Assembly: GCA_015709675.1 (NCBI GenBank)
Contig: CP054182.1
Location: 4,071,448-4,135,447, forward strand
Source of the DNA: Ignavibacteriales bacterium
GTDB lineage: Bacteria; Bacteroidota; Ignavibacteria; Ignavibacteriales; Ignavibacteriaceae
Length of the DNA: 64,000 nucleotides
Direction: 5' to 3'
The notes beneath the pieces are model-generated. The model saw only the letters and a program-made list of their open reading frames with translations, searched no databases and was not told where the DNA came from. Of the stretch, positions 2,738-54,860 are shown piece after piece; the first letter of the stretch is position 1; every line of letters begins with the position of its first letter. Made by a program: the position numbers and the translations under genes.

Positions 2738-2798
2738 AGACGATGCAAATGCTAACCGGAACTTATACCCCTCAGGAATTAATGCATTTGCGTCGTCT
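2738..2798. repeat. Hairpin element of the GAGACG family, GCAAATGC type
   Basis: The left arm AGACGATGCAAATGC (2738-2752) and right arm GCATTTGCGTCGTCT (2784-2798) pair at 14 of 15 positions around a ~31-base loop that starts with TAACCGG. Related hairpins occur at 38.2-38.6 kb and 54.6-54.8 kb. No T-run follows, so it is not a classical terminator. Confidence 0.75.
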
Positions 2799-2876
2799 CA
2801 TGGCCTTACCTTAATACAATAATAATCCCATACAATACGGGCAGATTGCAGATTGGCAGAAATTGTATAATACTAT

Positions 2877-3270
2877 GAACCTCATGATTTCTTGTCATTA
2901 GAACAGGTCGCGACCTGTCCCTTCGGTATATTATCAACCTGCAAATTATCCTGATTTATAATAATCCCGGAGGGACTCCATATTTGCAGAAATTATATAA
3001 TAATATGAACCTCATGATCTCTTGTCATTAGGACAGGTCGCGACCTGTCCCTAGGGTATATTATCAACCTGCAGATCATCCTGATTCATTACAATCCCGG
3101 AAGGATTGCATATTGGCAGAAATTGTAATAATAATATAAACCTCATGATTTCTTGTCATTAGGACAGGTCGCGACCTGTCCCTACGGTGTTAAATCAACC
3201 TGCAGATCATCCTGATTCATTACATTCCTGGAAGGATTGCATATAGGTAGATAATGTTGAAAACGACACC
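2877..3270. repeat. Three tandem ~130-bp units, each with a 20-bp perfect palindrome
   Basis: Units start at about 2877, 3007 and 3138 (spacing 130 and 131). Each contains AACCTCATGAT, then the core ACAGGTCGCGACCTGT at 2903-2918, 3033-3048 and 3164-3179. In units 2 and 3 the palindrome extends to GGACAGGTCGCGACCTGTCC. After it come TCAACCTGCA and a CCCGGA-GGA motif. Degenerate single copies of the palindrome occur near 38665 and 40450. I see no gene here. Confidence 0.85.
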
Positions 3271-3545
3271 CCGGCCCCGTCAGCGGAGACATACCTTTAA
3301 ACCCCGAATTCAATCCCGGAGGGATTGCATATTGGCAGATAATGTTGAACACGACACCCCGGCCCCGTAGGGGTCGCATATATTATTCTGCTTTCTGGTC
3401 TTATTTCCCCAGCCCCGTCAGCAGAGACATACCTTTAAACTCCGAATTCAATCCCGGAGGGATTGCACATTGGTAGAAATTGTAATAAACAAACCTACCC
3501 GGCCCGGCGGGGTCGCATATATAATGCGGCTTTCTGCTTTTTTTC
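3205..3545. repeat. Repeats with AATCCCGGAGGGATTGCA and CCCCGGCCCCG motifs
   Basis: At least three imperfect copies of a block reading CCGGAGGGATTGCA, then a TGGCAGA-like or GGTAGA-like stretch, then a CACCCCGGCCCCG or CCCGGCGGGGTCGCATAT motif, fill this stretch. AATCCCGGAGGGATT is itself a near-palindrome. An inverted copy is at about 38091-38160. Short open frames here are chance products of the repeat. Confidence 0.65.
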
Positions 3546-3557
3546 TCTTGCTCCCCG

Positions 3558-3623
3558 GAGACGCTGCAATCGCCGTGAAATTCTATAGTATATATGAACT
3601 TGTGGCGGCGATTGCAACGTCTC
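3558..3623. repeat. Hairpin element of the GAGACG family, GCAATCGC type
   Basis: GAGACGCTGCAATCGCCG (3558-3575) pairs with CGGCGATTGCAACGTCTC (3606-3623) at 17 of 18 positions around a ~30-base loop. It ends nine bases from the 3' end of the convergent GH9 gene, so its transcript could form a stable hairpin, but there is no T-run on either strand. Confidence 0.8.
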
Positions 3624-3631
3624 TACAAAAA

Positions 3632-14339: not shown

Positions 14340-14414
14340 AAAATAATTGATAATTGATAAGGGATAATGGAGAATTGTGAATTGAAATTTAATCATTAAT
14401 TGAATTTATGCTCT

Positions 14415-14775
14415 GAACCCGCGGAGCGGGTGACCTGTTAATAACACGCAATATATCTTTTCCCAAAATCAACCCGCAGCGCGGGTGACCCGTTAATAAA
14501 AATCAAAGACGAACAACTCGTTTGAACCCGCAGCGCGGGTGAACCGTTAATAAAAATCAAAGACGAACCACTCGTTTGAACCCGCAGCGTGGGTGACCCG
14601 TTAATAACACGCAATGTATCTTTTCCCACTATCAACCCGCAGAGCGGGTGACCTGTTAATAAAAATCAAAGACAAACCACTCATCTGAACCCGCAGCGCG
14701 GGTGACCCGTTAATAAAAATCAAAGGCGAACCACTTATTTGAACCCGCAGCGTGGGTGACCCGTTAATAAAATCA
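14415..14775. repeat. Seven-unit 54/55-bp tandem palindrome array
   Basis: Seven copies of AACCCGCAGCGCGGGTGACC start at 14416, 14471, 14525, 14579, 14634, 14688 and 14742 (spacing 54 or 55). The spacers are of two kinds: TTAATAACACGCAAT... after units 1 and 4, and TTAATAAAAATCAAAG... after units 2, 3, 5 and 6. This gives a 163-base higher-order period. Each unit has a CCCGC/GCGGG stem. The reverse complement of the same palindrome is one module of the array at 42991-43843. The rest of the 14340-15096 gap (a short AT-rich start, then 14776-15096) shows no gene. Confidence 0.9.
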
Positions 14776-28130: not shown

Positions 28131-29315
28131 ATGTTTGATTTTCAGTCCGGCGCTCCCTTTTTTGCACAGGCACCCGGCATGATGGAAGAGATGTGCGAGC
28201 AGGAACTGAAAGAGCTTGGCGCGGAGGCAACCAGGGTAAGCTACCGCGGAGTCTATTTTAAGGCAGACCTCAAAACGCTTTACCGCATCAACTACTCAGC
28301 CCGGATGATCTCCCGCGTGCTTGCACCGCTGACCGGATTCTTCTGCCGCTCAACTGATGTGCTCATCGAAAAAGCGCGTAAAATTGCATGGGAAGAAATC
28401 TTTTCGCTGAACCAGACCTTCTCCATCACCGCATCAGTGGCAAAAAGCCAGATAACCAATTCCCTCTATGCTTCCCAGTGCCTGAAGGACGGCATTGTTG
28501 ACCACTTCCGTGATATATACGGCAGGCGTCCTGATGTTGACACGGTGAACCCCGATGTGCGCTTTAATCTGCATATCGAAAAAGATAAAGCGGTCATCAG
28601 TCTTGATACCTCAGGCGACTCACTTCATAAACGGGGCTACCGCCTGCTTGCCGGAGAAGCGCCGATGCAGGAGACCCTTGCCGCGGCTATCATCCGGGTT
28701 ACTGAATGGAACGGTGAGCAGCCGCTGTGGGATCCGATGTGCGGCTCCGGCACGCTGCTCTGCGAAGGACTGATGCACTATTGCCGCATTCCCGCTCAGT
28801 ATCTCAGAAAAAAATTCGGTTTCTTTGCTCTCCCCGGTTTTACTAAAGATGCATGGGAGCAGCTAAAAGCAGAACTTGACTCACAAATACGCCCTCTGCC
28901 CGAGGGACTGATCAGCGGCAGTGATAAATATCAGCGCATCCTTAACACCGCGCAGGATAATCTTTCACGCCTTCCTTTTGGTGATAAGGTAAAACTTTCC
29001 TGCCATCCTTTCAGCCATGTTAATGAATATAAAAACGGGGTGCTGGTGGTTAATCCCCCTTACGGCATCCGGCTGGGTGAAATTGAAGAAGTGCGGGTAT
29101 TATATAAAGAGCTCGGAGATTTCCTCAAACAGCGCTGCCCCGGCACCACTGCGTATATATACATGGGTGATCCTTCGCTGCGAAAAGAAATAGGACTGCG
29201 AACCTCCCGCCGCGTTCCTTTAGTTAACGGCAAACTCGAAGGAGTCCTGGTTAAAATCGAAAGCTACGAAGGAAGCAAAAAAGCCAAGTGGCGTGATGCA
29301 GAAAACACTCCGTGA
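28131..29315 (+). CDS. THUMP-domain rRNA (guanine-N2) methyltransferase, RlmL N-terminal type
   Basis: The 394-residue enzyme has an N-terminal ferredoxin-like part and THUMP domain (~1-160) for RNA binding, followed by a Rossmann methyltransferase. It shows DPMCGSGT (201-208) for S-adenosylmethionine and NPPYG (~304) as the catalytic N-methylation motif. It is the standalone form of the RlmL N-terminal half (YpsC/YcbY group) that makes m2G in 23S rRNA. The ATG at 28131 has AAGGATTACC directly upstream. The gene before it is separated by 87 bases. A repeat-filled gap follows. Confidence 0.9.
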   Translation: MFDFQSGAPFFAQAPGMMEEMCEQELKELGAEATRVSYRGVYFKADLKTLYRINYSARMISRVLAPLTGFFCRSTDVLIEKARKIAWEEIFSLNQTFSITASVAKSQITNSLYASQCLKDGIVDHFRDIYGRRPDVDTVNPDVRFNLHIEKDKAVISLDTSGDSLHKRGYRLLAGEAPMQETLAAAIIRVTEWNGEQPLWDPMCGSGTLLCEGLMHYCRIPAQYLRKKFGFFALPGFTKDAWEQLKAELDSQIRPLPEGLISGSDKYQRILNTAQDNLSRLPFGDKVKLSCHPFSHVNEYKNGVLVVNPPYGIRLGEIEEVRVLYKELGDFLKQRCPGTTAYIYMGDPSLRKEIGLRTSRRVPLVNGKLEGVLVKIESYEGSKKAKWRDAENTP

Positions 29316-29346
29316 GATACGCGGCAAGTTATGTTCCGGAATGTAA

Positions 29347-29640
29347 CACTAATTGCCACGAATTTGAAAACACTAATTTTCACGAACTGACTGCCCGGCT
29401 TTAGTGAAATTCGTGCTCTTAATTTGTGCAATTCGTGTTAACCTCAGTGCAATCTGCGTAATTCGTTTAATCCATGATCATAGTTTTACACTAATTGCCA
29501 CGAATTTGAAAACACTAATTTTCACGAACTTACTGCCCGGCTTTAGTGAAATTCGTGCTCTTAATTTGTGTAATTCGTGTTAACCTCCGTGCAATCCGTT
29601 TCATTCGTGAGATTCGTGGCAAAATACTCCGTGTAATCTG
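29347..29640. repeat. 142-bp duplicated block of the CACGAATTTG...AATTCGTG family
   Basis: Two copies begin CACTAATTGCCACGAATTTG at 29347 and 29489 (142 bases apart). They share the inner parts CTGCCCGGCTTTAGTG and AATTCGTGCTCTTAATTTG, and end with ATTCGTGTTAACCTC and runs like CAATCTGCGTAATTCG. Related copies lie at 38695-39000, 40415-40515 and 43890-43925. The second copy overlaps the 3' end of the small membrane gene at 29530-29805. Confidence 0.85.
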
Positions 29641-29805
29641 CGAAACCTGACGCTTGCGCTCTGACTCATCACGTTCAGCAGCCCGCTGCACTGCTGCCGG
29701 ATAAACTGCATAGGCAATAACTATAAAAAATCCCCCAAAAACAATTATGACCAGAAGAACCGGATAGACAATAGGATTTAAAGTACTAAAAAACTCCGTC
29801 ATCAT
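29530..29805 (-). CDS. Small single-helix membrane protein whose C-terminus runs into a repeat
   Basis: The 91-residue frame begins MMTEFFSTLNPIVYPVLLVI with one membrane helix (~12-38) and a charged stretch ending ERDESERKRQ. The C-terminal ~38 residues (QVSQITRSILPRIS...) are encoded entirely by the dispersed repeat at 29347-29640, and near-identical peptides appear from the unrelated repeat copy at 38.7-38.9 kb. So the first ~53 residues may be the original protein and the tail a product of repeat insertion. It lies 7 bases after the stop of the upstream membrane gene. No function known. Confidence 0.5.
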   Translation of the reverse strand: MMTEFFSTLNPIVYPVLLVIIVFGGFFIVIAYAVYPAAVQRAAERDESERKRQVSQITRSILPRISRMKRIARRLTRITQIKSTNFTKAGQ

Positions 29806-30866: not shown

Positions 30867-30970
30867 TTTTCTGCCTTTCTTTAAAGTTATGTATTCTATC
30901 CGTTTTTAATTTTTTTTCTTACATTTTTTGACCCCCTCCAGGAGACTTAACTATCATGTATTCTCAATTT

Positions 30971-31114
30971 ACTTCACCTGCCGTGAGTTTCATTTTCGGG
31001 ATCGACAGGGAAGCAAATTGCTTTTGTCATTCACCCCCAGTGCACATTCGCTGTAAACTGCCCCTGCTGCACCTCATAAAGCACGGCAGGGACAAACTTA
31101 AGTTCATAATTCAT
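30971..31114 (-). repeat. T9SS-associated 3' element, copy A (small coding-like repeat)
   Basis: On the minus strand this ~144-base element starts with ATG at 31114 and reads MNYELKFVPAVLYEVQQGQF to a TGA at 31031 (27 residues). A second frame then reads MTKAICF. Shifted frames continue the peptide of copy B (LSIPKMKLTAGEV), so copy A is a frameshifted relative. It lies 40 bases downstream of the stop of the T9SS gene at 31155-32897, in the same orientation. Confidence 0.6.
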
Positions 31115-31154
31115 GCTTAATTCCGCCTGATCATACTTCATAATTCATTTATTG

Positions 31155-32897
31155 TCATTTCATCAACAACATCTTGCCTGTCTCGCGGATGATTTTGCCG
31201 GTTTCCCTGCCTTTGGTCTCAAGCATATAAAAATAGACTCCGCTGGCAAGGTCGTCTATGGTGCCGGTTATCTCCGGGGAAAACAGATAGTTATACTCTC
31301 CTGCTGACTGCTCCTCATTCACTCTTATTTCTAATAGTTCACCACGCAGTGTGTAGATATATAACTTAACATAACTCCGCTCATTAATCGTATAGCGGAT
31401 GGTTGTGCTTGGGTTAAATGGATTTGGGTAGTTACCAACAATCTGGGTTTTTTCCGGAGTGGTTACCTCATTTCCGTTTTCCTTCGTTGAGGTCAGAAGG
31501 AGCTTAATGGGCTGGCTCGGCTTGGATTCATTAACAATACTATCAATCGCTGTAACAAAATAGTAGTAATTCCTGCCAGAGTCAGGCATAGGAATGGTAA
31601 AGTTGGTATCCTGTCCCGAATAGATAAGTTTATCAGGAAATGGCACAAACTGCTCTACGGTATCCTGATACAGCCGGTAGCCGGTCAGGTCGGTTTCATA
31701 GTTTTTTTGCCAGCGAAGGGTTAAACTGTTGGCAGTTATAATGGGAAGAACAGTAACCGGAGCACGAGGTGCAAGGTCAAGGTACTCATAACTCCTGCCG
31801 TAAGGCCCGCCAAGAGGACCAATGTCACTCCTTGTTCCGTCAACATCAAGTATATCAGGGTCACCAGCATCAATCAGAGGTGAATACTTCTGAAGCCGGA
31901 AATCCCCTGCATCTTCATCAACAAACATGGGAAAAAGAATTTTGTTAGTCGAGTCACCTTGAACACCGTCAAATAATTTGTTTACTTTCCATGCGGCATT
32001 GTATTTTATAACGGAAGGCTGTTGGGGGTCCGGTTTTATCGCAGCATCAGCATAGAGGATAAGATTATTGTACAGGTGATTTTCCAAACTGAGCGCTATA
32101 CCAGCTCTGGTAAATTTCCCAGATATAAAATTATTATAAAATGTAATTTTCCAACCCATTATTCCATAAAACATATTATGAATATTAATAGGATTATTAG
32201 GATTAATGATTATATTATTTGCGACCAGATGCGGACCACCCGATAGCGGTCCACCGCCACCAGCTTGTTCTTTTAAATTGAATACATTGTTTATCATTGT
32301 CATGCTCAAATAAAATGTCGCCCAACTTTCCCAAAGATTAAAGATATTACCAACCAACTTTAAGGATGCACAATCTAGTCCAAGGGTTGACAAGTTTGGT
32401 GAACTGCCAAACGACTTAGTCAATTGTACTCTGCCATTTGGCGTGGCAATGAAACTTCCAGCCGAAGAAAGATAACAATCACGTATATAGACAGTGTCAC
32501 CACATGGGGCTTTTACATAAATAGCTTTCGCATACGATTGATTAAAATTATTGACAACTCTCATTGCTTCTATAACAACCCCCTCATTAAATATATTTAT
32601 AATGCCCGGAGTTGTTTCATTAACTTCCGGATAGCGTACTATACAGCTATCCTGCCCGGAACCAATGAGGGCAATTCGTTTTTGTATGATAATTTGTTCT
32701 CTGTATTCTCCTTTATCAACAAAAATTGTATCACCTGCATTTGCAAAGTTTATACATTTCTGAATACTGTCACATGCTGTTGCCGGAGTGGTGTATGGTG
32801 GGGTTGAACTTCCATTCTTACTGACATACCGGATTTCCGCAGAATTACTAACGGTCAACAGAATTAATATTATTATCGTTTTCATAGTCTGCCTCAT
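31155..32897 (-). CDS. T9SS-exported right-handed beta-helix protein
   Basis: The 580-residue protein has a signal peptide (MKTIIILILLTVSNS). Its start is RYVSKNGSSTPPYTTPATACDSIQKCINFANAGDTIFVDKGEY, the DUF1565/pectate-lyase-type parallel beta-helix opening, and beta-helix-like turns continue to ~340. A fibronectin type III-like region follows (~385-485; APRAPVTVLPIITANSLTLRW). Residues ~495-580 are the T9SS type A sorting domain (NYPNPFNPSTTIRYTI, SGVYFYML). It should be a surface or secreted carbohydrate-active or adhesive protein. Its start overlaps the stop of the short gene upstream by ATGA. Position: AT-rich accessory region. No catalytic residues identified. Confidence 0.8.
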   Translation of the reverse strand: MRQTMKTIIILILLTVSNSAEIRYVSKNGSSTPPYTTPATACDSIQKCINFANAGDTIFVDKGEYREQIIIQKRIALIGSGQDSCIVRYPEVNETTPGIINIFNEGVVIEAMRVVNNFNQSYAKAIYVKAPCGDTVYIRDCYLSSAGSFIATPNGRVQLTKSFGSSPNLSTLGLDCASLKLVGNIFNLWESWATFYLSMTMINNVFNLKEQAGGGGPLSGGPHLVANNIIINPNNPINIHNMFYGIMGWKITFYNNFISGKFTRAGIALSLENHLYNNLILYADAAIKPDPQQPSVIKYNAAWKVNKLFDGVQGDSTNKILFPMFVDEDAGDFRLQKYSPLIDAGDPDILDVDGTRSDIGPLGGPYGRSYEYLDLAPRAPVTVLPIITANSLTLRWQKNYETDLTGYRLYQDTVEQFVPFPDKLIYSGQDTNFTIPMPDSGRNYYYFVTAIDSIVNESKPSQPIKLLLTSTKENGNEVTTPEKTQIVGNYPNPFNPSTTIRYTINERSYVKLYIYTLRGELLEIRVNEEQSAGEYNYLFSPEITGTIDDLASGVYFYMLETKGRETGKIIRETGKMLLMK

Positions 32898-33268
32898 TTC
32901 AACAAAATGGATTTTTTTACTGACCTAAAGCTGCCCGAAATTAGTTCGTAAAAATAAATTCCGCTGGGGAGCTCGGCTGCAGGTTTGTACGAGCGAAGCA
33001 TAGTATAATCTACCACTAAGTCCTTAATCTGTGAGAAATTATTGGTTTTGGCCCAACCAAAGGGCTGATTGGCCGTAACCACCCCGTAAGGGAACTTCTG
33101 CTGAGCGTGAAGATTAATTGCGGCTGCTATTGTTAAAAAAAGCACACTCAGAGCCATGGGAAACCGTGTGCATATGCAAGAAATTGTTATCTTACTCATA
33201 ATGAGTTCTTTCATTGTGTTCATTCTGGCAGAATGAATTTTAATAAGAAATCGTCTAAAGATCGACAT
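32894..33268 (-). pseudogene. Internally deleted T9SS protein: signal peptide joined to the last part of a sorting domain
   Basis: The 124-residue frame has a signal peptide (best start Met at 33199: MSKITISCICTRFPMALSVL, then FLTIAAAINLHAQQ). About 60 residues later comes AAELPSGIYFYELISGSFRS followed by VKKSILLK, the last ~27 residues of a T9SS sorting domain. The NYPNPFNP part and any functional domain are missing. It overlaps the next gene's start by ATGA. This looks like the result of a large deletion; it may still be expressed. Confidence 0.6.
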
Positions 33269-33561
33269 AGCAATCTTCCTTCACTTTCATTCTGACCTTG
33301 TCTGCCAGCAAGGTCATTTCTTAGTAAATTTTTGCTTTTAAGATTCTATGCTTTCTCCAGATTTCATTAAAAGTCCTTAACCAGTAGAAAAATTAGTCCT
33401 CTGTTCTCATTTCACTCAGATAATATAAACAGTTTTTTTTCAACGCAACTAAGTAGAAATACGTAGTCTCGTCACTTTTTTTTACTTTTTTCACCTTTTT
33501 ATTGATATCGGGCGGGGCTTTCTTCCCGCCGGATGATCTTTGTAGCGTTAATGCTCTGTTA

Positions 33562-33707
33562 ACTTCACCTGCCATGACTTTCATTTTCAGGATTGACAGA
33601 AAACAGTTTGCTTTTGTCATCCACACCCAGTGCACATTCGGTGTTAACTGCCCCTGCTGCACCTCATTAAGCACAGCAGGGCCAAATTCGAATTCACAAT
33701 TTACCAC
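33562..33707 (-). repeat. T9SS-associated 3' element, copy B
   Basis: On the minus strand this reads from ATG at 33707 as a continuous frame of ~50 residues through the element (EFGPAVLNEVQQGQLTPNVH, then WVWMTKANCFLSILKMKVMA, then GEVN). It starts 6 bases downstream of the orphan T9SS sorting domain at 33714. It matches copy A in position and orientation relative to a sorting domain, with nucleotide identity that is visibly high. Open frames beyond it (to 33393) look low-complexity. Confidence 0.6.
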
Positions 33708-33713
33708 TCACTA

Positions 33714-33986
33714 TTATTTGAGCAAGGTCATCTTTTTAGAGATTGTCTGCCCCTTGCCATAGCTGAGTTTATAGATATATACTCCGCTTGCGTGGCTGCT
33801 ACCGTCAAATGGAACGGTGTATCTGCCTGCTGAGTAGCTGCCAGTGGCAAGTGTTGCGATCTCTTTGCCGAGTATGTCATATATTTTTAGTGTAACATCA
33901 CTCTGCTCAGGGAGGGCAAACTCTATCTCAGTCACCGGGTTGAAGGGGTTGGGGTAGTTGCGCCCAATTAAATATTCATTGACAAT
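33714..33986 (-). pseudogene. Orphan T9SS sorting domain (gene remnant)
   Basis: After a TGA at 33987-33989 the minus strand reads IVNEYLIGRNYPNPFNPVTE, continuing IEFALPEQSDVTLKIYDILG and ending GQTISKKMTLLK, which is a full T9SS type A sorting domain. There is no signal peptide or upstream body, so the rest of the gene is gone. The first in-frame start is GTG at 33935, in the middle of the domain. Confidence 0.8.
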
Positions 33987-34135
33987 TCATTATTACCGAC
34001 ATTTACAGACAGATGAAATGATCTTTCGCCAAGGAATTCTCTTTTTTTTACTAAAATTATTAAGAATGAATTCCATTTCCAACTAAAACTTTACAACCAC
34101 GAGATAAAGTATTTTTTTCATTTTTGATTTCCTTA

Positions 34136-35296
34136 TTATTGTTTGTTACCCTGCACTACTGCATAAACCTGAGATGATCTGTCAACGGCAAGGAATATTT
34201 TTTTTGATTTCGTCTTTACCATTTTCCTGAATGTGCTGTAATAGCTGTACGGTACCAATTCAGTAATATTTACCAATTCAAAATTCTTGCCGTTATAATG
34301 TGCATACAGATAATATGATCCGAATATCCAATAATCATTCGGACTGAATAATTTTATTGATAGTCCCATTCTTTCCAAAGACCTCAGTGGATACCCCAAT
34401 TCTTCAAGATTAGTTGCCTTATATTTTAATTCTGAACCCTTGGATTGGAACATATAACTTTCCCATCCGCTCAGATAAATTGTTAAAGAATCAGTGAAAG
34501 CACACCTGCTCACAGCAATATCTGAATATACTGAATATCCACTATTAACCGGAATATCCAGATGGTTCCCGATGGAATCCTGAGAATCAAACAGTTTGGT
34601 CCATATATTATCGTAATGCCTCCACAATTGATAATAATTTAATCCGCCAACAGCAACTGATTTATATGCATATACATATATTTCATTTTTAGAAATACCC
34701 CTTACCTTAGTAAAATTGAACTCAGTCGGAGCTTTGGAATATACCCAGGAAGCAGTATACCCATCTTTGGTATAGACCATACCGTTATCACCAACCGCAA
34801 CAAAATACCCTTTCTCATCTGTCCAAACACTGCGCAGCTCACCTGCGGTTGAGAACTGATAGCCCTTCCATTTCTTTGTACGGTTATCGAATTCACCAAT
34901 TCCCGGTTTTGAGGGATTAATGGCCCAGTTACCTACTGATACCATATAAAAATCATCACCGGTTACATCATTTGCAACGTGTCTAATTTCTTCAACCGTT
35001 CCGTTTATATCCTTACTCCAGTGATTGCCATCCCAATGCAATCCAATATATCCTTTTCTGATACCATTTGAATCTAATTGAAAGATATCACCCATAACAT
35101 AAGCGTCACTGTCAGAAAATGCCCAAATACCCCCAAGCCAGGATGGGAAAATTGCAATAGTATCCATCCGCCAGGTGTAATTTCTATCACCTTCCTGATA
35201 GGTGCAAATCTGTGGCTCCTGCGGAGTCACGGGATTATCTTTGCTGCAAGAGTTGAAGAGAATGATAATTCCTACCAAAATTATTATCCGTTCCAT
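34136..35296 (-). CDS. Lipoprotein with beta-propeller-like repeats
   Basis: The 386-residue protein has a lipoprotein signal ending LFNSCSKDN (lipobox Cys 16) and short repeats of the form IGLHWDGNHW, GDNGMVYTKDG and YAHYNGKNFEL, spaced ~40-60 residues, typical of beta-propeller blades. It is similar in style to the protein at 36486-37742, suggesting gene duplication. It overlaps the upstream gene's stop by one base (TAATG), so the two are coupled. Outer-membrane or periplasmic location is expected; function is not known. Confidence 0.65.
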   Translation of the reverse strand: MERIIILVGIIILFNSCSKDNPVTPQEPQICTYQEGDRNYTWRMDTIAIFPSWLGGIWAFSDSDAYVMGDIFQLDSNGIRKGYIGLHWDGNHWSKDINGTVEEIRHVANDVTGDDFYMVSVGNWAINPSKPGIGEFDNRTKKWKGYQFSTAGELRSVWTDEKGYFVAVGDNGMVYTKDGYTASWVYSKAPTEFNFTKVRGISKNEIYVYAYKSVAVGGLNYYQLWRHYDNIWTKLFDSQDSIGNHLDIPVNSGYSVYSDIAVSRCAFTDSLTIYLSGWESYMFQSKGSELKYKATNLEELGYPLRSLERMGLSIKLFSPNDYWIFGSYYLYAHYNGKNFELVNITELVPYSYYSTFRKMVKTKSKKIFLAVDRSSQVYAVVQGNKQ

Positions 35297-36273
35297 TATT
35301 CACCTGAAATAGTAACTATTGTTGTCATACTTGAGATATAATTTTGCGTTGGATATTGAGAATTAAAATGCAGCGAATATATACTTTCAGCATTTTGTCT
35401 TTTGATTCGAACACGAGAAACCACTCCCAAGTAATTTGCCAAACCATCTTGTGCAGAAAAAATCACTTGGGCAGTGTACTTTCCCAATTCGCTATCAAAA
35501 GTTGCTGTTATTGGGAATGAGGGATTTATTTGCCAGGGAAACTCTTGAGAAGGTGTTGTCGAAAAACATTTCATAGACTCAATCGAAAACAGATTGTTAG
35601 AGATAATCTTTATATAAGTATCGCGATTAGAAGGCCTTTTCCATTGAAATGCATACTGTGGTGGTATTGATTCAATTGTTGGTGTTACAGTTAAATTCAA
35701 CTCTCCATTTGTAACCTGATATGATAGCGAAGGCAGTCCCTTCCATTTCACATCAGCAGTTTCAGACAATCTTACTGTTGATTGGTTTAGTACATTTCCC
35801 TGATAAATCACCCAACTGACAGGTGCGAGTAAATTTTCAATTTCATCCCTCAGCCAGGGAGCAAGAATTGTCAGCTCATTAATTTTTTCCTGAAGATTTT
35901 GATACTCCGTGATAATATTTGCGGCACTCAACGTTGACGCCGGCACATTAAGTGTGGGATTCAGGTTGACTGAGCCGCTATAGACAGGCGAGGCAGAAAT
36001 ATTTAAAGTAAGTACTATTTTTATAGCATTATCTGTGAGTGAAACTTGTGGTTTGTTCAACGAAATCATCCAGTTCACTCCTTGAGTTGTACCAGACCAA
36101 CTCGTATTCATCGAAGCCCATTGACCGGCGATAAACCTGTTAATACCAGTAGAAGAAATACTGAACGATACAGGAATTGATCGTTCTTGCTCCGATTGGG
36201 CGTTCATAAAAACTGTTGGTAATAATATAATCACAAAGAATAATCTGGTAATTTTAGCAACTATTGATCGCAT
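35296..36273 (-). CDS. Secreted protein of unknown function
   Basis: The 325-residue protein has a signal peptide (AKITRLFFVIILLPTVFMNA) and a Ser/Thr-rich beta-type mature region (SISSTGINRFIAGQWASMNT, NPTLNVPASTLSAANIITEY) with a central helical stretch (LQEKINELTILAPWLRDEIE). I see no known motif, lipobox or T9SS tail. Its stop overlaps the start of the lipoprotein gene downstream by one base. Both lie in the AT-rich region, and both use clearly AT-richer codons than the operon at 6-12 kb. Confidence 0.6.
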   Translation of the reverse strand: MRSIVAKITRLFFVIILLPTVFMNAQSEQERSIPVSFSISSTGINRFIAGQWASMNTSWSGTTQGVNWMISLNKPQVSLTDNAIKIVLTLNISASPVYSGSVNLNPTLNVPASTLSAANIITEYQNLQEKINELTILAPWLRDEIENLLAPVSWVIYQGNVLNQSTVRLSETADVKWKGLPSLSYQVTNGELNLTVTPTIESIPPQYAFQWKRPSNRDTYIKIISNNLFSIESMKCFSTTPSQEFPWQINPSFPITATFDSELGKYTAQVIFSAQDGLANYLGVVSRVRIKRQNAESIYSLHFNSQYPTQNYISSMTTIVTISGE

Positions 36274-36485
36274 ATTTTTTCCTGTTTTTTATTTGATGAA
36301 TAATCCGTATCGGATAATATATTTTTTCGTTAAGCAGTATTTGATAATTACTGCATTGCAAAATCTCAATGGTATATTTTATTTGCTTTTTCGTATTCGT
36401 TGTTAAATGTTTTTTGGTGAATAATAATTTCATCTTCTTCCCATGGTTAATACAGCTTTTGTGCCCTGACCCCCTGTTGCAATTA

Positions 36486-37742
36486 CTATATTGTTTTTAC
36501 AGCAACTCTGCCATAAGCACCATTATTTAGATAAGTTTCTGGCAAATAGCTATGCCAGGTAGAACCGTTATAATGTAATATCAGACCAAATGCACCCACC
36601 ACAAATATGTCATTAAGACCATTTGCCCTTACTGCGGTTTTATAGTAAGGTGGCTGGCTGATATCTCTTTTCCAAACTTCACTTGTGCTGGCTGAAATAT
36701 AAAGACCATCACCTCCAATGATGTATTTACGTCTTGTCTTAAACCAAATTGAATTGAGTGCCCATGAAAGACCACTGTCATTTATCGGGGTTGCCTTATT
36801 CTCTTCAATGCTTAATAATGTCCTCCCTTCATCTATAAACTGATTTGATCCAACACAATGAATTTCCCATTTTTTACTCATTGTATTATAGTCACCCCAA
36901 ACATCATTGATGTGCAGAGTAGTCCCGCTTTCAATTTTCTTCCAACTTGTACCGTTGTAATGGGCTATATTACCACTGTTGCCAACAATATATATATTAC
37001 CACTACTACTGCCCCAAATTTTATTTACATAGGAGGGAAAGCTTATATTCATTGGTACATGCTTAAATGTGACTCCGTCCCACCTAACACCACCACCAAA
37101 CCAAATGTCATTAGCATTAAATGCAAAAATTGCTCTTATCACAACAAATATTGGGTGGCCATTGTAATAGAATGGTATCCTTCTCAATTCCCATCTGCTC
37201 CCATCCCAATGAACAGCATTGTATGCATTCGGGTCAGGATTCCCCAGCGAATCTTTCATGTAAATTTCACCAACTGCACAAATATTATTTTCATCTATTA
37301 TAGCAACATCGTAAAGGGAACTGCTCCCGACTTCACCGAAAGTAAAGGTCTCCCACGTAAAATTATGGCTGGTAGTATCCATAGTTCTTACTTCTGCGGT
37401 GTTGCTTATTTTATCATCATTGCCGTCATAGCGGATGATTGCACGGAATGAGTTATTGGTGGAGGGTTCAAGGTCTTCAAAAACTAAGAGGGTGTCACGG
37501 TTGAGTGAGAGTATCCGGTGGTAATCTTTGCCATCTTTCTGGATTGCCACATTTGCCAGTTGAGTAAGATTGTTAAACTTAAGCTCAAGCCACACCTCGG
37601 TGCAGGAGGCATCTAATGCTTCAAGGGTGATTTCTGTCAGCCCATACTGGCTGGCGGGTTCAGAGCATGAGTAAGAACTTAGGGTAATAAGCCCCATAGC
37701 CGCCCAGAAGAGCAGTTTAATATGTATAACACGAACGGGCAT
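36486..37742 (-). CDS. Lipoprotein with FN3-like N-terminus and beta-propeller-like repeats
   Basis: The 418-residue protein has an N-terminal signal with lipobox-like SSYSCSEP, an Ig/FN3-like segment (~32-120; TCTEVWLELKFNNLTQLANV) and then repeats such as AVHWDGSRWELR, GGGVRWDGVTFKHV, GNIAHYNGTSWKKI and LILHYNGSTWHSY. These H-W/Y-x-G-x-W blades match the pattern of the lipoprotein at 34136-35296. The shared design and AT-rich codon use suggest the two are paralogues in an accessory segment. Function unknown. Confidence 0.65.
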   Translation of the reverse strand: MPVRVIHIKLLFWAAMGLITLSSYSCSEPASQYGLTEITLEALDASCTEVWLELKFNNLTQLANVAIQKDGKDYHRILSLNRDTLLVFEDLEPSTNNSFRAIIRYDGNDDKISNTAEVRTMDTTSHNFTWETFTFGEVGSSSLYDVAIIDENNICAVGEIYMKDSLGNPDPNAYNAVHWDGSRWELRRIPFYYNGHPIFVVIRAIFAFNANDIWFGGGVRWDGVTFKHVPMNISFPSYVNKIWGSSSGNIYIVGNSGNIAHYNGTSWKKIESGTTLHINDVWGDYNTMSKKWEIHCVGSNQFIDEGRTLLSIEENKATPINDSGLSWALNSIWFKTRRKYIIGGDGLYISASTSEVWKRDISQPPYYKTAVRANGLNDIFVVGAFGLILHYNGSTWHSYLPETYLNNGAYGRVAVKTI

Positions 37743-38090
37743 TGTTGCCTCATTTCTGTTTGTGAATAGAAACTTTTTTGTGCCAAAACAGGTAGTTTCA
37801 GCTGCATAAATACATCAAAAACCGCTAAAAAATGCAGTTTTGCAGTATTCTTAAAAACTCTTGGCTTAGAAATAAAAAAAAGGGGTTAACCTGTTCCCAT
37901 AATCCTCATCCATCACTTCCCAAAAGGTATTTCATTTACCCAGAAAAATGAAACTTGCAAAGATTTTTCTTACTGCCTGTTAAAACATACGAAGATATTC
38001 TTTGATTGTCAACAGATTTGCTCAAATGTATTTAATCATAGAAAAATTTTTATGAGAATTTGCAGATACCGGAAAACATTCGACCCCGCC

Positions 38091-38160
38091 GGGGTTGGGA
38101 AGGTAAGGTGTTCTATATATATCTACCAGCCTGCAATCCCTCCGGGATTGTAATTGTAAT
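38091..38160. repeat. Inverted copy of the CCCGG-type repeat
   Basis: ACCCCGCCGGGGTT and, 50 bases later, CAATCCCTCCGGGATTG form two small palindromes. They are the reverse-complement counterparts of the repeats at 3205-3545. The flanking 37743-38090 is AT-rich sequence with no gene that I can support. Confidence 0.55.
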
Positions 38161-38167
38161 TTTCCAG

Positions 38168-38593
38168 GACGTTGCAATCTCCGCCATTCATACATATATC
38201 AAGGCGATAGCAGCGTCTCAAATCCGGATGTCGTAAAAATCTTCATGTTCCTCCCTGAGACGCCGCAAATGCGATTAAGAATTATGCGTTATGAAGTTTG
38301 GATTATGAATTGATTTATTATTTTGGCAGAGACGTTGCATTCGCTGTGACAGATTTTTATATACCTATTATTTTTACGATTGCGTCGTCTCATTGTGTGT
38401 CTGCGTCTCACCGGTGTTTACAATCTATCTCCCCTGAGACGCCGCAAATGCAAAACATTGCCGTTAGCAAAATGTCCGGTTAGCATTTGCGACGTCTCTA
38501 CAAAATTGATATTCATTTTTTCGTAGAGACGTTGCAATCGCCGCCACAGATATGTATAATCACATGAACCATCACGGCGATTGCAGCGTCTCA
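38168..38593. repeat. Cluster of GAGACG-family hairpins
   Basis: Several imperfect inverted repeats follow each other: GACGTTGCAATCTCCGCC...GGCGATAGCAGCGTCTC (38168-38220), GAGACGTTGCATTCGC...ACGATTGCGTCGTCTC (38330-38391), GAGACGCCGCAAATGC...GCATTTGCGACGTCTC (38437-38498) and GAGACGTTGCAATCGCCG...CGGCGATTGCAGCGTCTC (38525-38591). The 38258 region has an unpaired half. Two kinds, GCAATCGC and GCAAATGC, are interleaved. Short frames here are products of the repeats. Confidence 0.8.
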
Positions 38594-38644
38594 GATCCAT
38601 CAAAGGACGACAACGACAATGAGGCAGGTCAAGACCATGCAATT

Positions 38645-39000
38645 GCTGTGGCAAAACATGGTATAGGACAGGTCGCAACTTGTCCCTAACGATTTTTTCC
38701 GTGTAATCCGTTTAATCCGTGATCCTCATTCATGAGATTCGTGGCAAAATACTCCGTGAAATCTGCGGAATCCGTTTAATCGGTGATCGTAGTTTTACAC
38801 TAATGACACGAATTTGAAAACACGAATTTTCACGAATTGTCTGCCCGGCTTTAGTGTAATTCGTGCTCTTAATTTGTGTAATTCGTGTTAACCTCCATAC
38901 AATCCGCGCATTCCGCTTCATTCGTATTCATTCGTGAGATTCGTGGCAAAAAATAATCCGTGCAATCAGCGTAATCCGTTTAATCCGTGATCAGAACCTT
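38645..39000. repeat. Degenerate palindrome and CACGAATTTG-family repeats
   Basis: A degenerate GGACAGGTCGCAACTTGTCC lies near 38665. It is followed by runs such as CCGTTTAATCCGTGAT, GAGATTCGTGGCAAAA and a block CACTAATGACACGAATTTG...CTGCCCGGCTTTAGTG like the repeat at 29347-29640. The block ends ~40 bases before the SDR start. Nothing else is recognisable in the gap. Confidence 0.75.
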
Positions 39001-39041
39001 TTTCCCCTGCCATCTGTTCTTCTGAATAAAAGCGAAGAATC

Positions 39042-39743
39042 ATGAAAACATATTACATAGCCGGCGGATCATCCGGCATCGGACTCGAACTGGTAAAACT
39101 CCTCAGCGAAAAAGGAAATTCAGTAAAAGTCTTCAGCCGCCAGGCAGGAGGCACAACCGGACTCCCAGGGGTTACCCACATCCCGGCAGATTTCTCAGAA
39201 GGCACTCCACATCTCCCTGATGCTGATGAACCGGTTCACGGACTGGTCTATGCCCCCGGTTCCATTAATCTTAAACCGCTTAAACTCCTTAAGCATGAAG
39301 ATTTTCTCGCGGATTTTAAGCTCAACCTGCTCGGAGCTGTTTCATTCATCAATACCTATCACCCGAACCTCAAGCTTGCGGGGAACTCCTCCATAGTGCT
39401 TTTCAGTACCGTGGCAGTGCAGACTGGTATGCCGTTTCATGCATCCGTTGCATCCGCCAAAGGAGCGGTTGAAGGACTCACCCGCTCTCTTGCCGCGGAG
39501 TTTGCTCCTTCGGTACGGGTCAACTGCATTGCCCCCTCAATAACCGATACGCCTCTGGCTGCAAAACTGCTTAATAATGAAGCAAAGCTGAAAGCATCGG
39601 AAGAGCGTCATCCGCTTAAACGGGTGGGGAGTGCAAAAGAGATGGCATCACTGGCGTATATACTCCTTTCCCCGGAATCATCATTCATGACCGGGCAGGT
39701 GATTAAGGCGGACGGCGGTATGTCATCCGTAAAGCTGTTATAG
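39042..39743 (+). CDS. Short-chain dehydrogenase/reductase with atypical active site
   Basis: The 233-residue Rossmann protein has the nucleotide motif GGSSGIGLEL at the N-terminus (~8-17) and a typical C-terminal end TGQVIKADGGMSSVK. The usual catalytic Tyr-x-x-x-Lys reads VASAK here: the Lys is kept but the Tyr is replaced by Val (FHASVASAKGAVEGLTRSLA). It is followed by the substrate-loop region NCIAPSITDTPLAAKLL. So normal SDR acid/base chemistry is unlikely unless another residue takes over. The flavin reductase gene starts 9 bases downstream. I expect a linked redox function, perhaps near photolyase or flavin metabolism (inference). Confidence 0.85.
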   Translation: MKTYYIAGGSSGIGLELVKLLSEKGNSVKVFSRQAGGTTGLPGVTHIPADFSEGTPHLPDADEPVHGLVYAPGSINLKPLKLLKHEDFLADFKLNLLGAVSFINTYHPNLKLAGNSSIVLFSTVAVQTGMPFHASVASAKGAVEGLTRSLAAEFAPSVRVNCIAPSITDTPLAAKLLNNEAKLKASEERHPLKRVGSAKEMASLAYILLSPESSFMTGQVIKADGGMSSVKLL

Positions 39744-39752
39744 GAGCCGCAG

Positions 39753-40379
39753 ATGATACTCACCCCTGAAGCTCTTGGCAGCATGGAAAAACACTACCGC
39801 GCAAATTTTGTGAACTCACTTTCCGGATTCAAAAGCGCAAACCTGATAGGAACTATCTCGGACAAGGGAGTTACCAACCTTGCTCTGTTCAGTTCGGTGA
39901 TTCATGTGGGGGCTAATCCTCCGCTGATGGGAATGCTTTTCCGGCCGGTTTCTGTTGCAAGGCATACTTATGAAAATATCAAAGCAGCCGGACAGTTTAC
40001 CATTAACCATGTTCACAGCAGTATATATAAGCGCGCGCATCAGACCTCGGCACGCTATCCGGACGGAGTTTCGGAATTCACTGAGTGCGGACTGACACCG
40101 GAATATACCCATGCGGTAAAAGCCCCTTATGTGAAGGAAGCACAGGTAAAAATCGGTCTTAGTTTTGAGGAAGAGAAACATATCCTGGCAAATGATACCA
40201 TATTCCTGATCGGAAGGATTGAAGAGATACTGCTGCCTGACAATTCCATTCTTGAAGACGGAGTGCTTGATATTGAAAGCGCCGGAACGATAGCCATCAG
40301 TTCACTGAACAGTTATCATACAACCGGACTGCTCGGCCGCCTCCCCTACGCCAAGCCGGATAAACCGCTTAAAGATTAA
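39753..40379 (+). CDS. Flavin reductase-like (FMN-binding split barrel) protein
   Basis: The 208-residue protein has the split-barrel FMN fold of flavin reductase/DIM6-NTAB proteins: SGFKSANLIGTISDKGVTNLALFSSV near the N-terminus (FMN phosphate/isoalloxazine strands), MLFRPVSVARHTYENIKAAGQFTINHV and a C-terminal GTIAISSLNSYHTTGLLGRLPYAKP. It would bind FMN and reduce or use flavin, and the partner could be the neighbouring atypical SDR. The gene is 9 bases after the SDR stop. A strong terminator-like hairpin follows 13 bases downstream. Confidence 0.85.
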   Translation: MILTPEALGSMEKHYRANFVNSLSGFKSANLIGTISDKGVTNLALFSSVIHVGANPPLMGMLFRPVSVARHTYENIKAAGQFTINHVHSSIYKRAHQTSARYPDGVSEFTECGLTPEYTHAVKAPYVKEAQVKIGLSFEEEKHILANDTIFLIGRIEEILLPDNSILEDGVLDIESAGTIAISSLNSYHTTGLLGRLPYAKPDKPLKD

Positions 40380-40382
40380 TAT

Positions 40383-40413
40383 AAAAAAAAAGCCGCCGGT
40401 TCAGTCCGGCGGC
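40383..40413. terminator. Bidirectional terminator between convergent genes
   Basis: GCCGCCGG (40392-40399) and CCGGCGGC (40406-40413) make an 8-bp GC stem with a 6-base loop. An A-run precedes it on the plus strand, so the minus transcript has a T-tract after the stem. It sits between the plus-strand flavin reductase gene and the minus-strand T9SS gene, with the repeat region in between. Confidence 0.8.
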
Positions 40414-40527
40414 ATAATTCGTGTTCATTCGTGCAATTCTTGGCAAAATAGGGTATAGGACAAGTCGCGACTTATCCCTGCGAAATATTCATTCGTGTAA
40501 TTCGTGGCAAAACAGGGTATACCTGGC

Positions 40528-40599
40528 TGCGTTCCCGGTAAACTGCCCCTGCTGCAACTCAATGAGCACAACAGAAGCAAACAAGAGTTCATAATTCAT
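40528..40599 (-). repeat. T9SS-associated 3' element, copy C
   Basis: On the minus strand the ATG at 40599 begins MNYELLFASVVLIELQQGQF and continues TGNAARYTLF; the first 20 positions match copy A in 11 residues plus the ATG. It is ~28 bases downstream of the stop of the T9SS gene at 40627-42699 in the same orientation. The part after ~40545 has diverged into the CACGAATT family. Confidence 0.55.
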
Positions 40600-40626
40600 T
40601 CCGCCGCGGCGGATAATACTTCATAA

Positions 40627-42699
40627 TTATTTAATGAGCATCATCTTTTTCACCTGTGTGATTTTGCCCGCTGATATCTTATAGTAATAGACCCCGCTGC
40701 TCAGCCCTGAACCGTCAAACACAATTTCTTTTTGACCTGCCGGCTCAATCTGATTAACCGGTGTGGCAATCAGTTCTCCTGATGCTGAGTAGATATCAAC
40801 ACGGACCTCCGTCATCTCAGGCAGATGATACCTGATAACGGTTGAAGGATTAAAAGGATTGGGATAATTCTGCTCAAGTACAAATCCTTCAGGAACTGCT
40901 GCTTCCTGATCAACACCCGTCAGCACGCCGTTAAGCGCTCTTCTATATACGCCGCCAAATGATGTGGAAGCGTAGAGCAGACTGTCATCCGCGGCGATGC
41001 CAAAGACATATCCGTCACTCAGCCCCTCGCTGATATTCACCCAGGTTGCCCCGAAATCAGTTGACCGGTAAACACCGCTTCCGAAGGTGCCTGCAAAAAG
41101 ATTCTGCTCAACCACGGTAAGCTCTTCGATATATTCATTGTCAATTCCCGCATCAGCGCTCACCCAGGTTTGACCGTCATTGGTTGATTTATAAATACCG
41201 CTTCCGAATGGGGCGGCATACAGAGCACCATTCAGCACAGCCATGTTCATAATAAAGCTGCCCTGAATTCCGCTGTTGCGGAAAAGCCAGGTTTCCCCGT
41301 TATTGCTGCTCATATATACACCTGCTTCTGTACCGGCGAAAATCAGATCTCCCTTCACCGCGAATGAGCGCACATTAAACCAGGAGAGCCCGGCTGATGA
41401 GGATGACCAGTTAAGCCCGCGGTTTGTTGACTTATATATCCCTCCGCTGAAGGTACCCGCGAAAAGGATTCCGTCTTTTTCGGTTACGGTGCGCACATCC
41501 GGATCAGTAAGACCGCTGCCTCTCTCTGTCCAGTTCTGCCCGTTGTCTGATGAGTAATAGAGTCCGTAACCTGTTGCCAGATATAACCCGTCATGTGCAG
41601 CCAAAAGATCATTAAGCTCCTGCGAAACAAGCCCGCTGCTCATAAACTGCCATTCGTTTCCTTTATCAGATGAGCGGTAAAGGCCCGCCCCACCGTCAAC
41701 CGCGGCATATACATACTCTCCTGCGGTTTTCACGAATCGGGTACTGTAATAATTGAGCCCTTTGCTGCTGAGACCCCATGCTATGCCTGCATTGACTGAT
41801 TTATACAGACCCCCTCCTGCAGTTCCGGCAAAGAGCAGAGCACCGTCAGCGAATATACTTCTTATCTCTTTGTAATATATCTGCTGTGAAACAGCTGTCC
41901 AGTTCTGCCCGCCGTTCACTGACCTGTAGATACCGGCTGAAGTGGTTCCCGCGTAGAGGGTATCTCCGCTTCCGCTGAGGGTATTTACAAAAGTTGACGG
42001 GAGCCCGCTGCTTACCCGGGACCAGCTGCTTCCCTGATTGGTTGAGCGGTAAATGCCCGAAGCTGTTCCGGCAAAAATACCGGCCGGGCTGATATATACT
42101 GATCCGGTGAATATGCTGGCAAGACCGTTATTCGAGAGAACCCAGGTTTCACCCCGGTCGGAAGTAATATATACTCCGGCTGTCGTTCCGGCTATCATCA
42201 GTTCATCGCGGATTGCCAGGCTCAGCGGAGTTGCATTCTCAGGAATCTGGGTTACCTTGTTCCATGTCAGAGCCCCGTCCCGTGAGAGGTAGAGTGCATT
42301 ACCCAGACCCGCGAGTATATACTGATCGCTGGCAGCCAGTGATACAACATAGTTTTGAGCAAGTTCGGGCGCGGTAAGATACCACGACTCCCCGCCGTCA
42401 TGGGAAACATAGAGTCCGCTTCCGGCAGTACCGGCTATCAGCATAGTGCTGTTGCCGGCGAGAACATCCACAAACAGATTCGGCAGCCCGGCATCTGCCT
42501 TATACCAGTTTTCCCCTGCATCGTAAGAGCGGTAAATACCGCCACCGGTTGTGGAAGCATAAAAGGTTCCGTTCTGGCGGACAATAGAGGTAACGGTCGA
42601 AGATACAGGCCCGCTTGTAGGAGTCCACTCTGCTCTGAGCCCGGTTACGGTTACTATGGTCATAAGCATCACTGTCAAAAACATCGAATTTCTTGTCAT
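40627..42699 (-). CDS. T9SS-exported BNR/Ycf48-like beta-propeller repeat protein
   Basis: The 690-residue protein has a signal peptide (MTRNSMFLTVMLMTIVTVTG) followed by ~14 repeats of ~40 residues with the form GIYRSTNQGSSWSRVSSGL and ALFAGT-like strands. These are the Asp/Asn-box (BNR/sialidase-type) repeats of Ycf48/VPS10-like beta-propellers. Residues ~605-690 are a T9SS sorting domain (NYPNPFNPSTVIRY, SGVYYYKI). A surface binding or sialidase-like role is possible, but I see no sialidase catalytic set. GC content and codon use match the core genes. The copy-C element follows its stop. Confidence 0.85.
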   Translation of the reverse strand: MTRNSMFLTVMLMTIVTVTGLRAEWTPTSGPVSSTVTSIVRQNGTFYASTTGGGIYRSYDAGENWYKADAGLPNLFVDVLAGNSTMLIAGTAGSGLYVSHDGGESWYLTAPELAQNYVVSLAASDQYILAGLGNALYLSRDGALTWNKVTQIPENATPLSLAIRDELMIAGTTAGVYITSDRGETWVLSNNGLASIFTGSVYISPAGIFAGTASGIYRSTNQGSSWSRVSSGLPSTFVNTLSGSGDTLYAGTTSAGIYRSVNGGQNWTAVSQQIYYKEIRSIFADGALLFAGTAGGGLYKSVNAGIAWGLSSKGLNYYSTRFVKTAGEYVYAAVDGGAGLYRSSDKGNEWQFMSSGLVSQELNDLLAAHDGLYLATGYGLYYSSDNGQNWTERGSGLTDPDVRTVTEKDGILFAGTFSGGIYKSTNRGLNWSSSSAGLSWFNVRSFAVKGDLIFAGTEAGVYMSSNNGETWLFRNSGIQGSFIMNMAVLNGALYAAPFGSGIYKSTNDGQTWVSADAGIDNEYIEELTVVEQNLFAGTFGSGVYRSTDFGATWVNISEGLSDGYVFGIAADDSLLYASTSFGGVYRRALNGVLTGVDQEAAVPEGFVLEQNYPNPFNPSTVIRYHLPEMTEVRVDIYSASGELIATPVNQIEPAGQKEIVFDGSGLSSGVYYYKISAGKITQVKKMMLIK

Positions 42700-42990
42700 G
42701 GTTATCCTGGAAAATTGTTATCTGGTTTTTTTGTGAATTTCTGTTTCTGCCTGTCTGGTCATCCTTCCGGCGCAGCGCAGAATAGTAAGAATACAAAGGG
42801 GTACATGCATGGTGACAAACAGATGTATTTGTCATGCGAAAATTACAGAGCGGAGATAGGTATTTTCAGCAGATTGGAAAAAACGGCATTATGCCTACAT
42901 GAGCGGTTTTTATAGTGGATGAGGATTGGGGTGAAAATAGAGCATACAGCACCGGCGGAGTATTATAATTTTACCAATTGCTCTCAACTA

Positions 42991-43843
42991 ACAGGTCACC
43001 CGCTCTGCGGGTTCAGGGGGATTATATTGTACAAATGATTCTATTAACCGGTCACCGCGCTGCGGTTCAGTTCGAGTTATTACAGAAATTTCATAAACCG
43101 CGTTAGCGGTGATCCATTCATAGCTATTCCTAACAGGTCACCCGCGCTGCGGGTTCACGGGGATTATATTGTACAATTGATTCTATTAACCGGTCACCGC
43201 GCTGCGGTTCAAGACCGGTTATTAACGAAATTGCATGAACCGCGTTAGCGGTGATGCATTCATAGCTATTCCTAACAGGTCACCCGCTCTGCGGGTTCAG
43301 AGGGATGATATTGCACAATTGATTCTATTAACAGGTCACCGCTCTGCGGTTCAAGACCAGTTATTAACGAAACTACATAAACCGCGTTAGCTGTGATGCA
43401 TTCATAGCTATTCCTAACAGGTCACCCGCGCTGCGGGTTCAGGGGGATTATATTGTACAATTGGTTATATTAACCGGTCACCGCGCTGCGGTTCAACATC
43501 AGTTATTAATGAAATTACATATACCGCGGTTGCGGTGATGCATTTATAGCTATTCCTAACAGGTCACCCGCGCTGCGGGTTCAGGGGGGATTATAATGTA
43601 TAATTGATTCTATTAACCGGTCACCGCTCTGCGGTTCAGTTCGAGTTATTACAGAAGTTGTATGAACTGCGTTAGCGGTGATGCATTCATAGCTATTCCT
43701 AACAGGTCACCCGCGCTGCGGGTTCAGGGGGATTTTATTGTACAACTGATTCTATTAACCGGTCACCGTGCTGCGGTTCAAGACCAGTTATTACAGAAAT
43801 TGCATGTACCGCGTTAGCGGTGACCCATTAATAGCAATTTCGA
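42991..43843. repeat. Six-unit 142-bp tandem array with three hairpins per unit
   Basis: ACAGGTCACCCGC starts at 42991, 43133, 43275, 43417, 43559 and 43702; spacing is 142, 142, 142, 142 and 143. Each unit has (a) CCCGC...GCGGG, (b) CCGGTCACCGCGCTGCGGTTC and (c) ACCGCGTTAGCGGT, so ~18 small hairpins in all, separated by AT-rich spacers (ATTATATTGTACAATTGATT and GCATTCATAGCTATTCCTAA). Module (a) is the reverse complement of the repeat at 14415-14775. The rest of the 42700-43951 gap (upstream of 42991 and after 43843) contains no gene; a CACGAATT-family piece lies at 43890-43925. Confidence 0.95.
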
Positions 43844-54555: not shown

Positions 54556-54603
54556 GCTGCCGATGTGTCTGTGTTTTACCGATTTTTTGCCCTCGATCTT
54601 TCC

Positions 54604-54818
54604 TGAGACGCTGTAAACACGGTAAAGAATTATATTTTTCGTAGAGACGATGCAATCGCTGCGACCGACTTTTATATACCTCAGGTTATTGCGATTGCGT
54701 CGTCTCTGCGCGTATCCGTGCTTTGTACATTCTTGGCTTGCTCATTCCTCCCTGAGACGACGCAAATGCAGAAGATCGTAATGATTAAAACCTCCGGTTA
54801 GCATTTGCATCGCTCTAT
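54604..54818. repeat. Two GAGACG-family hairpins
   Basis: GAGACGATGCAATCGC...GCGATTGCGTCGTCTC (~54641-54706) and GAGACGACGCAAATGC...GCATTTGCATCGCTC (~54753-54816; the loop includes CTCCGGTTA) are in the same arrangement as at 38.3-38.5 kb. A half copy starts at 54604. The gap 54556-54946 has nothing else besides a terminator. Confidence 0.8.
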
Positions 54819-54830
54819 ATCAAATCGAAC

Positions 54831-54860
54831 AAAATAAAAAGCCCCGGATATTTCCAGGGC
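54831..54860 (-). terminator. Terminator of the subtilase gene
   Basis: GCCCCGG (54841-54847) and CCAGGGC (54854-54860) form a 7-position stem with one mismatch and a 6-base loop. On the minus strand it is followed by TTTTTATTTT. It is ~87 bases downstream of the stop of the gene that ends at 54947. Confidence 0.75.

Follow-up and report, generated by a model that had tools for sequence, protein, structure and literature searches.

Why does the same short stretch of DNA recur just behind three T9SS sorting tails in a 64,000-nucleotide segment (called the window) of an Ignavibacteriales genome, and is it a small gene, an RNA structure or a copied fragment? The first-pass annotation had placed three such elements on the minus strand behind sorting-domain stops, and both BLASTN within the window and a core 20-mer agree that they are present there. 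Copy A (31111-30960) matches copy B (33701-33551) with 83.6% identity over 152 bp (E about 1e-41). Copy C (40599-40532) resembles A and B across about 68 bp; the alignment of A with C has 75% identity over 106 bp including the common leader (E about 4e-14), and that of B with C has 78% over 59 bp (E 3e-8). The core 20-mer, GAGNTGCAGCAGGGGCAGTT, gives three matches in the window, where none is expected. The distance from the sorting-domain stop to the element is 40 bases for A, 6 for B and 27 for C. The core repeats, all on the minus strand, span 30960-31096 in A and 33551-33686 in B, both full length, and 40532-40581 in C, which is truncated at its 3' side, where the start of another repeat family (TTTGCCACGAATTACACGAATGAA; GCCACGAATTACACGAATGAA) forms its end.

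Each of the three upstream neighbors named in the annotation does carry a sorting tail. Ahead of A lies a 580-aa T9SS cargo-type gene (31155-32897, minus strand) with a weak fn3 match, a NosD-like stretch and a Por_Secre_tail domain, and ahead of C a gene for a 690-aa BNR/sortilin-type beta-propeller protein with a T9SS sorting tail (40627-42699, minus strand). The supposed gene ahead of B turned out to be an orphan sorting tail in a 90-aa open frame (33714-33959, minus strand), one member of an approximately 250-bp DNA family that is 83-87% identical at five other loci of the same genome. We also noted a 124-aa ORF on the minus strand (32894-33268), in which a signal-peptide-like N-terminus leads straight into the final residues of a sorting tail; it is probably an internal deletion of a T9SS gene.

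In all three copies the left boundary of the element falls inside or at the end of an AT-rich motif that is ordinary in T9SS 3' UTRs. The leaders, again on the minus strand, occupy 31097-31154 in A (AATTATGAAGTATGAT...ATGAATTATGAACTT, the source of the residues MNYEL), 33687-33713 in B (GTGGTAAATTGTGAATT) and 40582-40626 in C, where the motif includes a CCGCCGCGGCGGA insert and has the same layout as at two further loci (L129 and L139). The underlying sequence, ATGAATTATGAANT, occurs at 156 sites genome-wide compared with 0 for the reversed control, often repeated in tandem (period 7 or 14), and many T9SS genes of this genome have it as a normal component of the 3' UTR. Among the clusters listed, 5 of 53 are found no more than 75 bases behind a sorting tail, where about 0.3 would be expected for clusters falling anywhere. 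The sites listed are mostly on the minus strand below about 0.6 Mb and mostly on the plus strand from 0.9 to 2.4 Mb. Behind its tail, a paralog of the gene ahead of A, at 2,359,588, shows this same leader (AATTATGAAGTATGAT..ATGAATTATGAACTT) without the element. Because the leader motif is found genome-wide and also behind this element-free paralog, the MNYEL residues are contributed by an ordinary non-coding motif. The peptides quoted in the annotation can be read as given in A, B and C, whereas their attribution to the element itself fails at the 5' ends, which come from the AT-rich intergenic motif.

From these peptides it had been proposed that the element is a translated micro-ORF or a decayed gene of about 50 residues. 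In a wider form, the proposal is that a small protein of about 27-100 aa is translated after T9SS genes, or that the copies are remnants of one, and all three copies can indeed be read through the first 24 codons, with B open for 104 aa. Against this, the N-terminal residues belong to the genome-wide non-coding motif, B has no ATG, and A is interrupted by an in-frame TGA and differs from B by a 1-nt indel, so that the distal part of A changes frame, as the annotation had observed. C diverges after about 24 codons, leaving only the first half common to all three. In the synonymous/non-synonymous comparison suggested at that stage, the numbers of amino-acid-changing codons in the proposed frame were close to random for every pair (11 versus 10.7 for A/B, 7 versus 9.0 for A/C and 11 versus 11.0 for B/C), with no excess of synonymous change (P 0.70, 0.14 and 0.64, respectively). 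No protein family was retrieved for the element when the ORFs were compared with Pfam, NCBIfam and PADLOC, or when selected frames, forward and reverse, were compared with Pfam and PHROGs, and no relative matched. Since the codon test has little power on stretches so short, weak coding is no more than unlikely, and we regard a small protein or its remnant as very improbable; on present evidence the micro-ORF is rejected. Repeated, intergenic and devoid of a coding signal, the element behaves as a short intergenic repeat.

How widely the repeat is distributed bears on its tie to secretion genes. The annotation had proposed a search for further copies; in the complete, single-contig genome (4,212,902 bases) there are exactly three, all inside 9.7 kb and each behind a T9SS sorting tail (whole-genome statements here derive from genome searches and retrieved stretches). 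The genome contains at least 150 sorting tails, nearly all of them without the element, which points to a local duplication rather than to a general companion of T9SS genes. Hence, of the earlier suggestion that a mobile fragment had attached to these tails, the copied fragment fits, and a general association with T9SS genes does not. The search for relatives proposed with it gave no match in 146 relatives by DNA, including one congener (88% complete), in 295 relatives by protein or in 395 genomes sampled across the phylum, and no copy was found in the phages and plasmids searched. A model of the element's hairpin, run against 59 genomes, retrieved the same three copies and one marginal match (genome G014, E 0.007), which we treated as chance, along with brief 31-bp matches to two other genomes (E about 1e-3). 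Matches to the core 20-mer across phyla, 20 in number, were short, did not extend along the repeat and were near chance for the bases searched. An Rfam scan of 29.3-44.5 kb of the window gave no match up to E 1, PADLOC on the ORFs gave none and did not indicate a defence island, and our literature searches gave no account of intergenic repeats either from Ignavibacteria or downstream of T9SS genes.

We then considered what normally stands at this position. At related sorting-tail genes the usual 3' end runs from the stop through the AT-rich motif to a terminator, most commonly of the form AAGCCCTGGTTNNCAGCCGGGGCTTTT, which has 16 copies genome-wide, at least 10 of them directly behind sorting tails. 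Six close relatives of the sorting tails (five in the same genome, one in the congener) show a like leader followed by a terminator and no element, whereas at the three copies such a leader runs into the element where the terminator normally stands. No canonical terminator was found within about 350 nt of the stops ahead of A and B; C has one (40392-40413, minus strand; GCCGCCGG-loop-CCGGCGGC followed by T9) 238 nt after the stop of its upstream gene.

The first 38 bases of the element form a hairpin in all three copies, at 31058-31095 in A (a 16-bp stem register with one C.A mismatch), 33648-33685 in B and 40543-40580 in C, all on the minus strand. This raises the question of whether the three T9SS transcripts have their 3' ends defined or stabilized by this hairpin (TTTGnCCCTGCnGTGCT-loop-GGTGCAGCAGGGGCAG) in place of the usual terminator. 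The element occupies the slot where other T9SS genes have AAGCCCTGG..CCGGGGCTTTT, 93.8% of cells are paired in the 16-pair register compared with 40-58% in slid registers, and most changes in the 5' arm replace C by T and so preserve G-U pairing. Sixteen consecutive bases of the 3' arm are invariant, a run a little above the expected length (P = 0.02), and in 61-nt windows the RNA fold z values are -2.8 for A, -3.4 for B and -1.5 for C. However, no pair is altered on both sides among the three copies, so compensatory double changes are absent, and a recent common origin would preserve the hairpin without selection. The T-tract of an intrinsic terminator is missing after the stem in all three copies, C has its separate canonical terminator, the full-length z values reach only about -1.4 to -1.5 in A and C, and the hairpin model has no homolog among relatives in the 59 genomes beyond the chance match. 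We therefore consider it unlikely that the hairpin has taken over from the terminator; a residual 3'-end role may be possible, unproven as it is with three linked copies.

Taken together, the copied-fragment reading is supported: the element is probably a genome-private, non-coding intergenic repeat of about 135 bp that spread locally, through ectopic recombination, into the 3' UTRs of T9SS genes and is now decaying. A fragment would have entered one T9SS 3' UTR and been copied at least twice within 9.7 kb, into two neighboring 3' UTRs, via the AT-rich leader. The route may have been ectopic recombination, gene conversion or template switching between similar AT-rich T9SS 3' UTRs, after which the copies would have decayed, with the 5' hairpin perhaps persisting as a 3'-end structure of the transcripts. 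The tie to sorting tails would then reflect where homologous 3' UTRs are located and not a function. All three copies do lie behind sorting tails although T9SS genes make up only a few percent of genes, which counts against a purely local history, and with three linked copies a function and a shared local past cannot be told apart. Comparing the copies, whose boundaries lie in low-complexity sequence, by eye with element-free 3' UTRs, we saw no target-site duplication; a donor was likewise not found, which leaves the copying mechanism a proposal.

Another reading is a decayed, non-autonomous transposable element of the MITE type, with subterminal inverted repeats CCTGCCGTG/CACGGCAGG. The ends of A share a perfect 9-bp inverted match (P 0.006 by shuffling) that B retains with two G-T pairs, yet once wobble pairs are allowed the match becomes ordinary (P 0.17 and 0.22), and it does not lie at the very ends of the element. 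With no target duplication seen, no further copy or parent element found in the genome and no dispersal beyond one locus, the three copies being tightly linked, we find a MITE origin quite improbable.

The surroundings of the copies are consistent with local rearrangement. Upstream of B, the congener's genes are 93-96% identical. Its T9SS gene at the B locus includes a body of about 1.3 kb, and the 3' side of this gene has no copy of the element and is followed by different genes; the window genome has just the sorting tail left there. The rlmL gene (28131-29315) adjoins the C gene in the congener and lies 11 kb from it in the window, so the A-B interval was gained, lost or moved. This interval of about 9 kb is flanked by direct repeats at 29346-29645 and 38698-38992, within which 29408-29645 and 38714-38974 match with 78.6% identity over 262 bp. 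The differences from the congener, the direct repeats and the deleted-looking ORF together indicate that the region has been rearranged and is rich in T9SS remnants. Other repeats are present in the window: tandem 142-bp units with CCCGC-rich inverted repeats lie at 42988-43840, and these inverted repeats also match a 54-bp tandem array on the other strand at 14414-14772. Intergenic repeat families of the GAGACGTTGCAATCGC and CAATCCCGGAGGGATTG types, often inverted, are found at 2741-3644, 38119-38560 and 54596-54834.

The repeat itself is minor, being three decaying copies in one genome, and its interest is as a marker that points to T9SS cargo 3' ends common to genes with unrelated bodies. 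The DNA that these 3' modules have in common starts at the NPFNP codons, or just ahead of the stop, and extends about 100 bases beyond the stop. Similarity mostly breaks off close to the terminator, and in several pairs the bodies are unrelated. Examples are the loci L128-L140 (e.g., 3777422-3777649, 1072890-1073117 and 1319471-1319698, with the window copy at 33714-33959), at which unrelated bodies are followed by a sharply bounded module of about 350 bp, consisting of sorting tail, AT-rich 3' UTR and terminator, with 75-87% DNA identity. Some T9SS genes have only the 3' UTR and terminator in common. Similar modules behind unrelated bodies show that 3' ends are common to different T9SS genes. 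Part of this sharing is protein constraint on the sorting tail. Fourfold sites in the tails are only about 60% identical, so that much of it must be old or still under way rather than the outcome of one recent sweep. Sharing of the AT-rich motif, the terminator and sorting-tail DNA could help to explain how at least 150 sorting tails have accumulated. One could go further and read the element as a 3'-end module of recent origin, an alternative that takes the place of the standard T9SS terminator and spreads by recombination at the common 3' UTR, its hairpin setting the transcript 3' end; if so, T9SS genes of this lineage would exchange sorting tail, 3' UTR and terminator as cassettes. We think that this stronger reading is rather unlikely to hold.

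Among known systems, the element is closest in general class to REP/BIME- and ERIC-like repeats, being non-coding, about 135 bp long, multi-copy, located behind genes and able to form a stable hairpin; it differs in having only three linked copies, and no relation to a named repeat family, nor an Rfam match, was established. With the genome's own Rho-independent T9SS terminators (AAGCCCTGGTTNNCAGCCGGGGCTTTT) it shares the slot after the AT-rich leader, a GC-rich hairpin and a similar GCCCTG...GGGGC outline, whereas its stem and loop are longer, it has no T-tract and about 100 bp more of common sequence follow downstream. In Porphyromonas gingivalis, a T9SS organism, modular exchange of surface-protein domains and alleles has been described (PMC5266723). 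The likeness lies in recombination between T9SS cargo genes, with the difference that protein domains and alleles are exchanged there, while here it is a non-coding 3' segment.
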